Under the pieces are notes generated by a model. That model made no database searches. It was not told the origin of the DNA and saw only the letters and a list, made by a program, of their open reading frames with translations. Source: Natrinema salsiterrestre (GTDB lineage Archaea; Halobacteriota; Halobacteria; Halobacteriales; Natrialbaceae). From it: a DNA stretch of 64,000 nucleotides. This document shows, piece by piece, positions 27,838 through 32,518 of this stretch (its first letter is position 1; each line of letters starts with the position of its first letter). The position numbers and the translations under genes are program-made. The DNA lies in the NCBI RefSeq assembly GCF_029502005.1, contig NZ_JAMQOT010000007.1:1-64000 (forward strand). Direction: 5' to 3'.

Positions 27838-28608
27838 ATGGACCCCGCGGTACTGCGCGAAGATATGGTCGACGGCCTCGAGTCCCCGCCCAGGGACGTC
27901 CTCGCCGACGAGGACCTCGCCGTCGCGATGCGCGACGTCCCGCGACACGCGTTCGTCGGCGACGAGCGGACGGCCTACGCGGATCGCGATCACGAGGCGC
28001 TCGGCACCCGCGTTCTCGCACCGAGCACCGTCGCCCGCCTCTTCGAGGCGCTCGCCCTCGAGGAGGACGGTAGCGTACTGATCGTCGGCGTTGGAGTCGG
28101 CTACACGGCCGCGCTGGCGGCCGAGCTCGTCGGCGAGACGAACGTCCACGCCGTCGACATCTCCCGTCCGCTGGTCGTCGAGGCGCGACGGAACCTCGCG
28201 GAGGCGGGGTACGACGGCGTCCTCGTCGACTGCCGCGACGGCGCGAACGGGCTCTCCGAGTACGCCCCCTTCGATCGCATCCTGCTCGAGGCCGCCGCGG
28301 TCGATCCGCCCCGCGCGCTGCTCGAGCAGTTGTCCGATGAGGGACGACTGGTCCTCCCGCGAGGGACCCGGCAACAGCGGCTCGAGGCCGTCTCTGCTGA
28401 CGGTGAGACGGACGCGTTCGACCCCGTTTCGTTCGACCCGCTGTTGGTCGAGGGCGAACAGTCGGGTGCCGTCGAGCGGAATCGAACGACGCGCGAGGAC
28501 CGCGAGCGAGCACATCGTCGCGCCGAATCCCGGCGCGGCTGGGAGCAGGACTGGATCGAGTGGGAGGAGACGATCGACCGACAGTCCCGACAACAACGAT
28601 CTCGATAG
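27838..28608 (+). CDS. Diverged PCMT-like methyltransferase
   Basis: The 256-aa protein aligns with the PCMT gene just upstream over the first 200 residues: RHAFVGDERTAYADRDHEALGTRVLAPS against the RPLPIGDGQTISAPH region. Motif I is VLIVGVGVGYTAAL (about 80-93), where the usual E/G-T-G-C-G is changed, so SAM binding may differ. A C-terminal tail of about 50 charged residues (many R/E) is extra. It could be an inactive or differently specific paralogue. Confidence 0.75.
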   Translation: MDPAVLREDMVDGLESPPRDVLADEDLAVAMRDVPRHAFVGDERTAYADRDHEALGTRVLAPSTVARLFEALALEEDGSVLIVGVGVGYTAALAAELVGETNVHAVDISRPLVVEARRNLAEAGYDGVLVDCRDGANGLSEYAPFDRILLEAAAVDPPRALLEQLSDEGRLVLPRGTRQQRLEAVSADGETDAFDPVSFDPLLVEGEQSGAVERNRTTREDRERAHRRAESRRGWEQDWIEWEETIDRQSRQQRSR

Positions 28609-29248
28609 CAAATTGTCGCGGCGAACGTCCGTGCAGATCTGTTTCTGAAACGATTCCGACTGCTTCGCTCCGGGTTTCGCTCGAGCGACCGCCTGCTGGA
28701 AGTCCGGGAGTATCGAAATCGCAACTATCGGTCGTGTCTCGTCGTCTTCCGGGAAGCGGCGATGCGTCTGTCCGGTGGTCGGGTGGAAAGGGGTGGGGGG
28801 AAAGGGGGTGGCGACAGTCTGTCTCAGATCGCCACTTCTGGGTACACACTGGTGGGGGTTAAAAATAGCTTCTAACTGATTAGTGGGTCTTAATCGAAAC
28901 TCCTAATCAATTAGTGCCAATGGGGGAGATTACCGATAGCGATATTTAGTCAACAGCAACTACCTGCTTCGAAGCAGAATCCGTCGATGCGTCTCTCGAA
29001 AACGGTGCTATTCGCCCTGAAAAACCGCGACGGCGGCTGGTGCCGTGCGAAAGATCGTCTCCGTTCGTCCCGCTTCGTGTCTGAAGCCGACCGAGAGATC
29101 GCGGTCGCTATCGAACGGTAGTTCGCGGAAAGGGGGTGGGGGGATTGGGGTGGCGAGGGATAATCCCTGATCGCCATTCCGTGGTATGGTTTGTCGATTG
29201 TTAAGTATACCTTCTAACTGCTTAGGGTCCCCTCGAAACAGGCTCTAA
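28609..29248. other. Intergenic region with two duplicated 130-base units
   Basis: Between the methyltransferase genes and the Bat-type regulator, 640 bases have no confident protein gene. They hold two diverged copies of a unit with G-tracts, a hairpin, TATA-like sites and two palindromes (listed separately; the second copy extends to 29256, across the stop codon of the next gene). A 44-codon plus frame at 28987-29121 and a 75-codon minus frame at 28950-29177 are weak coding candidates. Confidence 0.6.
28785..28914 (-). repeat. Unit 1 of duplicated regulatory/RNA-like module
   Basis: Read on the minus strand it has CTAATTGATTAG (28914-28903), 19 bases, CTAATCAGTTAG (28883-28872), a TATA-like GCTATTTTTAAC (about 28869-28858), then a hairpin 28835-28808 with a perfect 7-bp stem GTGGCGA/TCGCCAC enclosing TCTG-AGA-CAGA, then a pyrimidine-rich tract. 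The unit matches 29127-29256 in every landmark, with 342 bases between copies. A GTG-GCG-ATC-TGA frame at the hairpin stops after three codons, so the hairpin does not encode the start of a protein here. Confidence 0.6.
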
Positions 29249-29256
29249 TCAATTAG
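29127..29256 (-). repeat. Unit 2 of duplicated regulatory/RNA-like module
   Basis: Landmarks on the minus strand: CTAATTGATTAG (29256-29245), CTAAGCAGTTAG (29225-29214), TATA-like GTATACTTAAC (about 29210-29200), hairpin 29176-29151 with outer TGGCGA/TCGCCA and inner GGGAT/ATCCC, then a C-rich tract. Inner stems differ in sequence between units but still pair, hinting at structure kept by compensatory change. The first palindrome overlaps the stop codon of the regulator gene (29249-29251). In this copy a 75-codon frame starts with ATG at the hairpin, unlike unit 1. Confidence 0.6.
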
Positions 29257-31372
29257 AATGCCCGTCGAAGGCCACCGTCACGAGCTTCCGTTCGGCTGCC
29301 CGCAGGTGATAGTGATACGTCGGCGACGAGACGTCGAGTGCATCCGCGAGGTCCTCGCCGGTACTCTCGCGCGGCCACTCGAAGAAGCCGCTGTAGTGAG
29401 CCGCCTGCAGCGCTTCGAACTGCTTGTCCGTGAGCCGTTCCGCGAGGTGGGCGTCGAGCCGTCGTGCCGAACGCGTATGTGTGGTCTCCCGTTTGGCCAC
29501 CAGTTCCGTCTCCGGATACTCCTCCCGGATCGCTTCCACCAGCGACCGCGTCTCGACTCCCTGTGGCACCTCGAGGACGAGCGTCGCCGTTCCGTCTTCG
29601 GCCGTCGCCATCCGTATCTGGACGTCGTAGGTCCGCAGGACGTCGAGAAACGGCGTCGACGTTACCGTTAGTTCGAACAGCGTCTCCTCGTCGCCCTCGG
29701 ACACCACCGACAGCGTCTCGATCGACGCCCACTCGTTCTCGAGAGCGGTCAACGACGCCGTCACCGGCGCGCTGACGAACAGTACGATCCCGTCCTCGCC
29801 GCGGTCGATGACGCCATCGAGCGTTATCCGTTCGCTGGCCGCAAGGTGGTCCGAGAGCCGGTTGAGCAGCAACCGCGAATCCCCGACGGCGAGTTCCAGC
29901 TCGAGCCGGCTGTCGGTTAGCATCGCCCGCGTTTGCTCGACCGACCGGATCGCGTGACCGATGGTTTCCCCGAGTTCGGCGAGGACCTCCCGCTCGCTCT
30001 CACCGACCGAATCGGCGCCCGCGACGTGGACGACGAGGACACCGTACCGGCGCTCGTCGGCGACCAGGGGAACCCCGAGCACCGTCTGGTAGCCGTACGT
30101 CAACGCTTCCTTGCGCCGCGATCGCCATTGCTCGTCCTCGAGGACGTCGTGTATCAGCCGTAGCCGTCCCGACTCGAGGGTCTCCCGAACCAGCGTGATC
30201 TCGGGGGCGCGATCGCCGTCGCCGCGGATCGTGTCGATGTAGGCTGCGTCGATCCCGGACCACGCGGTCGGCGTCGGCGGTTCGTCGTCGCTCGCGGCGA
30301 TCCAGGCGAAGCGATACCGGTCCGTCTCAGCGAGGCGATCGCACACCGTTTCCTCGATCGCCGCTCGCGTCGACGCCTGCGCGACGCCGTGGTTGATCTC
30401 CCGGACGATCTCGTTCGTGTGATTGAGTCGCGTCAGTTCCTCGTTTTGCCGCGTGAGCGTTCGGTCGTGGTCGCGGAGCAACTGCTCCCGTTCGGCCCGG
30501 TCCAGCGCGGCCTCGGTGTTGGCCGCCAGAATGTGCAACAGCTCGGTCATCGTCTCGTCGAACCCGTCGACGTCCTCGCAGCCCGCGACCAGCACGCCGT
30601 GTGTCCCGAGCGGAACGATCAACTCGCTCCGGCCCGACGCACCCGTCGCCTCGACGCCGTCCTCGCGCGTCACGTCCTCGTAGTAGGCGCTTTCCCCCTC
30701 CGAGAACACGTCCCAGACCAGCCCCTCACCGCGCTCGAAGGTCTCCGCCGGATCGCCACGTTCGGGGGATCGCCGCGTCGATGCCGCGTGCTCGAGACTG
30801 CCCGCCGTGGGTTCGAACGCGTACGACGCGGCGACCGCCACGTCGAGGATCTCGCTCGCGGTCTCGACCGCCGACCGGTAGATCTCGTCTTTGGTCTCCG
30901 CTCGCATCAGATCCCGCGTCGTCTCGTGTAACGTCGTCAGCGTCCGCTCGTAACGGCGCTCGCTCTCCCGGAGCTCCGTCTCCGTGCGGTACTGGGCGAC
31001 CGCGTTCGTGATCTGATTCGCCAGCAACGCGTACTGCTTCTTTCCGGATTCCTTCTGCAGATACTGCGTCACGCCCGCCGCGATCGCCTCGCTGGCGATC
31101 TCCTCCGATCCCCGCCCGGTGAAGAGAACGAACGGTAGATCGGGATCGTCCTCGCGAACGCGCTCGAGCAACTCGAGCCCCGTCATCTCCGGCATCTCGT
31201 AATCGCTGACGATGCAGTCGACAGCCCGCCGTTCGAGGATCTCGAGCGCTTCCGCGCCGTCCGTCGCCGCTTCGGCCTCGATCGCGTCGTGCTCGCGCTC
31301 GAGCATCTCTCCGGCGAGATCCGCGAATCCCGGTTCGTTGTCGACGACGAGTACAGTGATCGGTTTCGTCAT
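29249..31372 (-). CDS. Bat-type response regulator (REC-GAF-GAF-HTH_10)
   Basis: The 707-aa protein has an N-terminal receiver domain (1-120, phospho-acceptor Asp57 in IVSDYEMPEMTG), two GAF domains (about 145-295 and 330-490), a bacterio-opsin-activator-type domain (495-640) and a C-terminal HTH_10 (about 645-700: AERLTDKQFEALQAAHYSGFFEWP...TGEDLADALDVSS). Bat proteins activate genes in response to light, oxygen or redox. It is monocistronic; a CTAA-N4-TTAG site lies 50-61 bases before the start and two more pairs lie just past the stop. No kinase gene is adjacent. Confidence 0.88.
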   Translation of the reverse strand: MTKPITVLVVDNEPGFADLAGEMLEREHDAIEAEAATDGAEALEILERRAVDCIVSDYEMPEMTGLELLERVREDDPDLPFVLFTGRGSEEIASEAIAAGVTQYLQKESGKKQYALLANQITNAVAQYRTETELRESERRYERTLTTLHETTRDLMRAETKDEIYRSAVETASEILDVAVAASYAFEPTAGSLEHAASTRRSPERGDPAETFERGEGLVWDVFSEGESAYYEDVTREDGVEATGASGRSELIVPLGTHGVLVAGCEDVDGFDETMTELLHILAANTEAALDRAEREQLLRDHDRTLTRQNEELTRLNHTNEIVREINHGVAQASTRAAIEETVCDRLAETDRYRFAWIAASDDEPPTPTAWSGIDAAYIDTIRGDGDRAPEITLVRETLESGRLRLIHDVLEDEQWRSRRKEALTYGYQTVLGVPLVADERRYGVLVVHVAGADSVGESEREVLAELGETIGHAIRSVEQTRAMLTDSRLELELAVGDSRLLLNRLSDHLAASERITLDGVIDRGEDGIVLFVSAPVTASLTALENEWASIETLSVVSEGDEETLFELTVTSTPFLDVLRTYDVQIRMATAEDGTATLVLEVPQGVETRSLVEAIREEYPETELVAKRETTHTRSARRLDAHLAERLTDKQFEALQAAHYSGFFEWPRESTGEDLADALDVSSPTYHYHLRAAERKLVTVAFDGHSN

Positions 31373-31421: not shown

Positions 31422-31433
31422 CTAAACAATTAG
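31422..31433. promoter_or_regulatory. CTAA-N4-TTAG palindrome upstream of the Bat-type regulator
   Basis: CTAAACAATTAG lies 50 bases before the start codon. It is the fifth copy of a motif also found at 28872-28883, 28903-28914, 29214-29225 and 29245-29256. The position, upstream of any TATA, fits an activator site for autoregulation. Confidence 0.5.
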
Positions 31434-31492
31434 CATTCGACTCGAACCCGCTCGAACCACCTAGTATCTTCGTCGGCTCAAATCGGGGAAAC

Positions 31493-31930
31493 TCACGGAA
31501 TATCTCCGTCGAATTCGTATTCGTTCGCCCAGTTGATCGACGGATGATCGATTTCGGATTCGAATCGGAGTTCCATCTTCTGCTCCGTTGCGTCGACTGC
31601 ATCGATCCAATACAACTGCTCGTTTTCGGGATAGTAGACCAGAAACGCGTCGATTAACCCGTGATACGTCTCTTCGTGATAGACGCCGTTCTTCGTCGTT
31701 TGCGAGTGGGTGTTAAATCGGAGTGTTTCCGCTTTGTTCGACCAGCCAGTCTTGCACTGTATTCGGTGGAGCTCAGTCCCATCGTCGACGATGAGATCGT
31801 ACTTGTCGTTATCTCCGAACGGAACCGAGACGCTGTAGCCACATGCAACGAGTTCGGCTACTGCTCTTGCTTCGGTCTCGTCACCGACAGCTTTCGAATT
31901 TCGCACGGTACGATGAGCCTCGCTTTCCAA
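31493..31930 (-). CDS. Stand-alone PD-(D/E)XK endonuclease (group I intron-associated type)
   Basis: The 145-aa protein has the catalytic layout E20 in a first helix, D45 in KYDLIVDD, and Q58-x-K60 in HRIQCKTGW, followed by the typical YHGLIDAFLVYYPEN and WIDAVDATE. This is the PF11645-like family, found in introns as homing enzymes and in archaea as free-standing genes of unknown role. It lies just before the duplicated tRNA-Asp genes (98 bases), but no intron is seen in those tRNAs, so linkage may be chance or mark a past insertion. Its codon use seems less GC-biased than neighbours. Confidence 0.8.
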   Translation of the reverse strand: MESEAHRTVRNSKAVGDETEARAVAELVACGYSVSVPFGDNDKYDLIVDDGTELHRIQCKTGWSNKAETLRFNTHSQTTKNGVYHEETYHGLIDAFLVYYPENEQLYWIDAVDATEQKMELRFESEIDHPSINWANEYEFDGDIP

Positions 31931-32013: not shown

Positions 32014-32143
32014 GTTCCTCGAAAAAGCGCCCGAGGCGGGATTTGAACCCGCGTCACAACCGTGACAGGGTTGTATGATGGGCCACTACACCACCCGGGC
32101 TCCCTGCAACTCTCCATTTCCCGGTAACAGTATTAAGGGTTTT
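32014..32143 (-). repeat. Duplicated tRNA-Asp block, copy 1
   Basis: Spans GTTCCTCGAAAAAG on the left, the tRNA gene, and a 5' flank ending in the TATA-like AGTATTAAGGGTTTT. It is repeated at 32389-32518 with an exact 375-base offset; the gene is identical and flanks differ by scattered changes, so the duplication included the promoter. Confidence 0.75.
32028..32100 (-). tRNA. tRNA-Asp (anticodon GTC), copy 1
   Basis: The minus strand has acceptor GCCCGGG/CTCGGGC with discriminator G, D-arm TGGTGTAGTGGCCCATCA, anticodon stem ACAACC/GGTTGT with loop CTGTCAC (anticodon GTC), and T-arm GCGGG-TTCAAAT-CCCGC. No intron and no encoded CCA. TATA-like CCCTTAATACT lies about 30 bases before it (32139-32129). 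Confidence 0.93.
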
Positions 32144-32402
32144 GCTCTCCGATCATGTGTCGTGTCCAGTGACAGATACTTTGTTTCGTGAGGCAAGAAA
32201 CGCGCCAACGTCGGTCAATGATCTCCGATAGGTAGGTCCTATTTGGAACATGATTGATGTGCACGATCGAGGGCGAACTGAACTCGGGATTCCCACTCGG
32301 TCTGCTCGGTCCGTCGGTCAACTCGCGTATCGAGCTCTCCCGAATGGGGATATCCGCTACATAGCGAGCTGGTGGCTCACTGGTTTGGGTTCCTCGAAAA
32401 AG
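32101..32402. other. Spacer between the two tRNA-Asp genes
   Basis: Apart from the promoter of copy 1 (32129-32139) nothing is recognised here. The minus-strand frames that cross it arise from tRNA-Asp sequence (motif VQIPPRALFRGT) and are artefacts. Confidence 0.6.
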
Positions 32403-32518
32403 CGCCCGAGGCGGGATTTGAACCCGCGTCACAACCGTGACAGGGTTGTATGATGGGCCACTACACCACCCGGGCTCCCTGCAACTCTTCGTTTCCCCGA
32501 CGGAGTATTAAGGGTTTT
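32389..32518 (-). repeat. Duplicated tRNA-Asp block, copy 2
   Basis: Partner of 32014-32143: same order of left flank, tRNA, and TATA-like AGTATTAAGGG at 32504-32514. The 5' flank differs at several bases between gene and TATA. Confidence 0.75.
32403..32475 (-). tRNA. tRNA-Asp (anticodon GTC), copy 2
   Basis: Identical in all 73 bases to the gene at 32028-32100. Loop CTGTCAC gives anticodon GTC. Its own promoter (32514-32504) suggests both are expressed. Confidence 0.93.

Follow-up and report, generated by a model that had tools for sequence, protein, structure and literature searches.

Within the window (the whole analysed stretch of DNA, 64,000 nucleotides long), a response-regulator gene is followed, on its own strand, by two short modules of similar build, beyond which lies the convergent gene pcm (27838–28608). 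The features of the locus, in minus-strand order, are given below, with R1 denoting a covariance model built from the hairpin and tail of the predicted RNA.

31453–31464: degenerate second site CTAGGTGGTTCG (minus strand), 31 bp from the next palindrome, 6 of 8 matches
31422–31433: palindrome CTAATTGTTTAG (minus strand), predicted autoregulatory site, starting 61 nt upstream of the regulator ATG
29249–31372, minus strand: regulator gene, 707 aa, REC + GAF + GAF + BAT + HTH_10 (Pfam)
29245–29256: distal operator of copy 1, palindrome CTAATTGATTAG (minus strand), overlapping the end of the regulator gene
29214–29225: proximal operator of copy 1, palindrome CTAAGCAGTTAG (minus strand)
29200–29209, minus strand: TATA-like box of copy 1, TATACTTAAC
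29127–29179, minus strand: predicted RNA copy 1 (unit 2; R1 52.4 bits, E 2.4e-12), with its 5' end near 29178–29179, hairpin 29152–29175, G-free C-rich tail 29127–29151 and T-run 29129–29131
28903–28914: distal operator of copy 2, palindrome CTAATTGATTAG (minus strand), 31 bp from the proximal one
28872–28883: proximal operator of copy 2, palindrome CTAATCAGTTAG (minus strand)
28858–28868, minus strand: TATA-like box of copy 2, CTATTTTTAAC (from position and information content)
28781–28837, minus strand: predicted RNA copy 2 (unit 1; R1 75 bits, E 3.1e-19, with fold and tail statistics), with its 5' end near 28836–28837, hairpin 28810–28833, G-free C-rich tail 28781–28809 and T-run 28787–28789

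The earlier note on this DNA had described two units carrying the same landmarks 342 bases apart, each with a pair of CTAA-N4-TTAG palindromes at a spacing of 31 bases. Both units are present, as are all four palindromes. A repeat search of the window recovered the units as a 60-nt direct repeat (72% identity) at that offset, together with 26-nt repeats at 28858, 28889, 29200 and 29231 (spacings of 31, 311 and 31). On the minus strand, the two palindromes of a unit, with 19 bp between them, precede the TATA-like box, and the hairpin, the C-rich tail and the T-run come after it in that order. Unit 2 is the nearer of the two to the regulator, and unit 1 terminates ahead of pcm. On the other side of the regulator, between it and a tRNA-Asp gene, lies a PDDEXK_5 nuclease-like gene (31493–31930, minus strand), which is conserved there in several genera; its counterpart in G010 (L058) reads as a different, membrane-protein-like gene. 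Two tRNA-Asp (GTC) genes (32027–32100 and 32402–32475), 375 bp apart and with similar flanks, are found upstream of rpoH/rpoB''.

The palindrome is rare. Eleven exact CTAA-N4-TTAG sites occur in the 4.79-Mb genome, and five of these fall within the 2.6 kb of the locus—four in the modules and one upstream of the regulator—for which a Poisson estimate of chance occurrence (at least five sites in 2.6 kb) is about 6e-14. Relatives within the genus are similar, with 4–18 sites per genome. As a pair at 31-bp spacing with 0 mismatches, the palindrome is confined to the two modules genome-wide. When up to three mismatches are allowed, only four places are returned: the two modules, the promoter of the regulator gene itself, with 2 mismatches, and a single 3-mismatch site, which could be due to chance.

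In the same genome, only these two copies of the RNA are significant by R1. A DNA search matched 27 of the 29 genomes searched in the genus (this one included), and within the family R1 matched 104 of 125 genomes and 26 of 29 genera. When 392 genomes were sampled across the order, 84 were positive, 83 of them in the same family and the one outside it marginal. The search of the units across haloarchaeal genomes that the earlier note had called for shows them to be far commoner in this family than that note could have foreseen, and present essentially nowhere else. Three further model matches (L189, L190 and L193) were discarded by eye as likely chance matches, as they are without operators and tail. 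Relatives of the regulator occur in Natrinema, Haloterrigena, Natronorubrum, Natrialba, Natronococcus, Halopiger and Halovivax, genera of a family that we take to be the Natrialbaceae. No copy of the RNA was found in plasmid and phage sequences.

Across 133 copies, the promoter region keeps a fixed geometry. The distal palindrome starts at −77 from the start of the model in 108 copies, and in 127 the start of the proximal palindrome is at −46; the two are 31 apart in 105, and 31 bp corresponds to three helical turns. Distal sites mostly have 7–8 of 8 matches and proximal sites 6–8, against at most 6 in control windows. The TATA-like box lies about 25–33 nt upstream of the hairpin, as judged from its fixed position and information content in 46 copies from the genus and near relatives. 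Thus, box and operator offsets give the unit a promoter of its own at a fixed distance, as expected of a small RNA gene. Given the position of the box and archaeal promoter geometry, transcription is predicted to start at a conserved A or purine 3–4 nt before the hairpin. The operators sit just upstream of the box, and it is this position only that leads us to prefer activation, which it fits, over repression. In L049 (G012), the first palindrome of RNA copy 1 is disrupted and the RNA start displaced; an inverted repeat beside that copy, CTATAGTAGCCGTT, is perhaps the remnant of an insertion.

From this start, the hairpin, the tail and the T-run end, an RNA of about 50–55 nt is predicted. The tail is 69% C and 0.5% G (further downstream, G rises to 30%), extends for a median of 29 nt to the first G and, in 122 of 132 copies, carries a T-run close to the end. 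Copies differ in tail length and in the exact lengths of the runs but agree in composition. Between G000 and its closest species, in which the regulator is 98% identical, the RNAs are 94–95% identical and the spacers 74–82%; copy 1 is unchanged from the hairpin through the T-run, next to a spacer of 74% identity.

The conservation has no coding explanation. Candidate coding frames on either strand were rejected, as none matches a family and none is open in all copies; tail lengths show no preference for any of the three frames, and the start codon is not conserved. In unit 1, the frame at the hairpin stops after three codons (GTG GCG ATC TGA), just as the earlier note had read it, and its argument that shared protein coding does not account for the conservation stands. 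The units are non-coding, as small RNA genes should be. Between the modules, a 44-aa frame (MRLSKTVLFALKNRDGGWCR...) is open on the plus strand (28987–29121).

These observations bear on two readings in which no separate RNA gene exists. In the first, the hairpin and C-tract form the 5' leader (an attenuator, or a riboswitch-like element) of a longer mRNA. A hairpin at a transcript start can indeed be a leader, and in copy 1 a 75-aa frame begins at the hairpin. However, neither this frame nor the 44-aa one has a Pfam or NCBIfam match, the tail lengths are not multiples of three, and in several genomes about 20–30 nt separate the end of the tail from the stop codon of convergent pcm, a distance that leaves no room for a downstream gene. 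It is chiefly this nearness that weakens the leader alternative, and we regard it as highly improbable. In the second, the unit is a DNA element, whether a bidirectional terminator separating convergent genes or a structure formed by the C/G tracts (G-quadruplex or i-motif), and no functional RNA is made. The G-runs on the opposite strand would suit such an element, as would its location between convergent genes in most genomes, but the TATA-like box and operators are held at fixed spacing from the hairpin, the G-free tail with its T-run end occurs on one strand only, and copies that are not beside pcm (L116, genus g9) keep the same internal order. A DNA element thus appears very unlikely too. 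The best-supported reading is the one that the earlier note had inferred, with two small RNA genes under the adjacent Bat-type regulator; the leader hairpins that it had allowed as an alternative have lost ground.

What the hairpin itself contributes is a more qualified matter. It is conserved as GGCGA...UCGCC, 6–7 bp, with a conserved apical loop, and the two hairpins of the locus fold at −13.8 kcal/mol (z −3.5) and −16.2 kcal/mol (z −2.0). Many copies were gathered with a pattern that requires the stem and then rechecked by the covariance model; the invariance of the outer stem is therefore partly circular, and the count of 68 of 70 distinct hairpins in which it folds is inflated by that pattern. 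Inspection by eye showed that in a few cases a change on one side had turned a pair into G-U, and that the innermost pair is broken in two different ways. Covariation is essentially absent from the stem in the collected copies, many of them selected by the stem pattern, and could hardly be demonstrated where the outer stem is nearly invariant. The earlier note had taken the inner stems, which differ in sequence and yet both pair, as a mark of structure under selection. The pairing is real in these two copies; as evidence of selected structure it fails, since apical pairing in the family equals that of the copies' own shuffles (mean fraction 0.48), and inner-stem compensation was discarded on that ground. 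The apical sequence is nevertheless conserved despite pairing no better than shuffled, which suggests that the loop is recognised.

The regulator is a Bat-type (HTH_10) response regulator, with Pfam scores far above cut-off, and its association with the RNA is close. For all 37 orthologues (57–100% identity, in genomes of the family), the RNA is found on the strand of the regulator no more than 1 kb downstream; 21 of them are followed by two copies, and the first RNA most often begins 72–84 nt past the regulator stop. Among 12 other genomes of the family compared, which are without an orthologue, the RNA is present in only 6 (Fisher p 6.6e-5, a figure computed on related genomes that are not independent). 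The palindrome also recurs upstream of the regulator's own gene: a perfect site lies 54–99 nt from the start in 29 of 30 genomes, and the remaining one has 7 of 8 matches, a conserved arrangement of the kind expected of autoregulation. A second, weaker site is often present exactly 31 bp away, and the offset −31 averages 4.8 of 8 matches over the 30 genomes against 1.9 at other offsets. The own-promoter site may, as a tentative suggestion, overlap the TATA box and repress. In G017 (C3:567606-569822), the regulator match is in two pieces, possibly through a frameshift or a sequencing error, and both RNA copies are intact.

Genomes that have lost the regulator show what becomes of the operators. 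In G043, G122 and G029, as in g16, the locus has kept the RNA without the regulator, and the palindromes are partly eroded. G048 has no close orthologue of the regulator; its RNA is found at another genomic position, with neither palindrome beside it. From the linkage and this joint decay, we infer that the regulator binds the palindromes. Genus g9 has one RNA copy beside a REC-BAT regulator of 49–51% identity. A second copy with the same kind of palindromes is located elsewhere, downstream of a different HTH_10 gene (L117, L119 and L122), which in L117 and L119 stands beside paaA-like genes (paaA assigned by eye).

Taken together, the family-wide conservation, fixed promoter spacing, autoregulatory site, linkage in all 37 cases and erosion of the palindromes favour RNA genes. 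We propose that the locus is probably a self-contained circuit, in which a single response regulator drives its own gene together with one or two non-coding RNAs of very small size. The REC-GAF-GAF-BAT-HTH_10 protein, an activator of the response-regulator type, would bind CTAA-N4-TTAG palindromes, both upstream of its own gene, for autoregulation, and at the RNA promoters, where it would occupy a pair of sites separated by three helical turns and directly preceding the TATA box. The neighbouring gene, or pair of genes, would then yield a non-coding RNA of the predicted length, starting at the hairpin or 3–4 nt before it, continuing as an unstructured, G-free and C-rich tail (CCACCCCCAAUCCCCCCACCCCC) and ending at a short U-run. 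The 5' hairpin presumably caps and protects the RNA. Being G-free, the tail could not fold on itself through G-C pairs and would be free to act in trans, hypothetically through base pairs with G-rich mRNA segments or as a binding site for a protein. Sequence comparison supports the architecture, conservation and non-coding nature of the unit, the link between palindrome and regulator, and the finding that this genome has hardly any other operator pair; that the RNA is transcribed, and that the regulator activates it, we infer.

As to how the tail acts, its reverse complement was searched against the genome itself and yielded no convincing base-pairing target. Outside the locus no near-perfect complement occurs; the best match 13 of 15 positions and are mostly unremarkable. 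Matches to the tail complement were two-fold above a reversed control, a control that differs in dinucleotide content, with five of the matches equal to or overlapping the locus itself. This lack of a strong complementary target would agree with a reading in which the RNA is real and sequesters an RNA-binding protein, through its C-rich tail or its loop, rather than pairing with mRNAs. A tail that varies in length and run lengths and keeps its composition, an apical loop conserved in sequence with no gain in pairing, and tandem copies, which suit titration, all point the same way. This reading is, however, without a candidate protein, and short G-rich seeds in mRNAs may have escaped the search done. 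We consider sequestration a reasonable possibility, if on balance somewhat doubtful.

In bacteria, tandem small RNAs controlled by response regulators are known from GacA-RsmY/RsmZ and LuxO-Qrr. The present system resembles these in that a response regulator would work through small RNA genes that are present in redundant copies and have palindromes upstream of the promoter. It differs in having an archaeal TATA promoter and an HTH_10/BAT regulator, a predicted RNA that measures no more than about 50 nt and has a C-rich tail devoid of G, and RNA genes placed directly downstream of the regulator gene, with no Rfam match. RsaE/RoxS are small RNAs of Gram-positive bacteria with C-rich seeds. The shared traits are an unpaired C-rich region suited to G-rich translation start sites and a two-component link; here again there is no Rfam match, and the likeness is that of a predicted RNA for which no target was found. 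Bat, the bacterio-opsin activator, acts at the upstream activating sequence of bop. The regulator described here has the same BAT and HTH_10 domains and sites immediately upstream of the TATA box, and is distinguished by its N-terminal REC domain, the site CTAA-N4-TTAG and its predicted targets, namely the RNA genes and itself.

Characterised archaeal small RNAs include sRNA132 of Haloferax (PMC6560208) and sRNA162 (PMC3510493) and sRNA154 (PMC5867862) of Methanosarcina. These are likewise small archaeal non-coding RNAs, and the available portions of their descriptions, rather than a comparison of sequences, set them apart, in that no dedicated adjacent regulator is reported there. No Rfam model (of 4227) has a hit in the region, either at the gathering cut-off or with E up to 1. 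As far as literature searches reached, there is no published description of the RNA, nor of an archaeal response regulator with tandem RNA genes of its own. Because it matches no described RNA family, we report the RNA as a new family, and the system as a new archaeal variant of the response-regulator/small-RNA logic.

Archaeal small RNAs whose controller or mechanism is known are, to our knowledge, few. The system outlined here offers a conserved operator, a promoter, predicted limits of the RNA, a regulator that seems dedicated to it and natural genomes from which the regulator has been lost, and both halves of the circuit are therefore genetically testable in cultivable Natrinema or Natrialba. 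For Natrinema sp. J7-2, RNA-seq at three salinities has been published, as PMC8303175 mentions. The regulator may even be wholly dedicated, with itself and one or two RNAs of about 50 nt as its only direct targets, and with these RNAs in turn controlling many mRNAs or an RNA-binding protein across the Natrialbaceae, a proposal to which we would give not quite an even chance. If true, the circuit would provide a function for one member of the large and mostly unstudied class of BAT/HTH_10 regulators.
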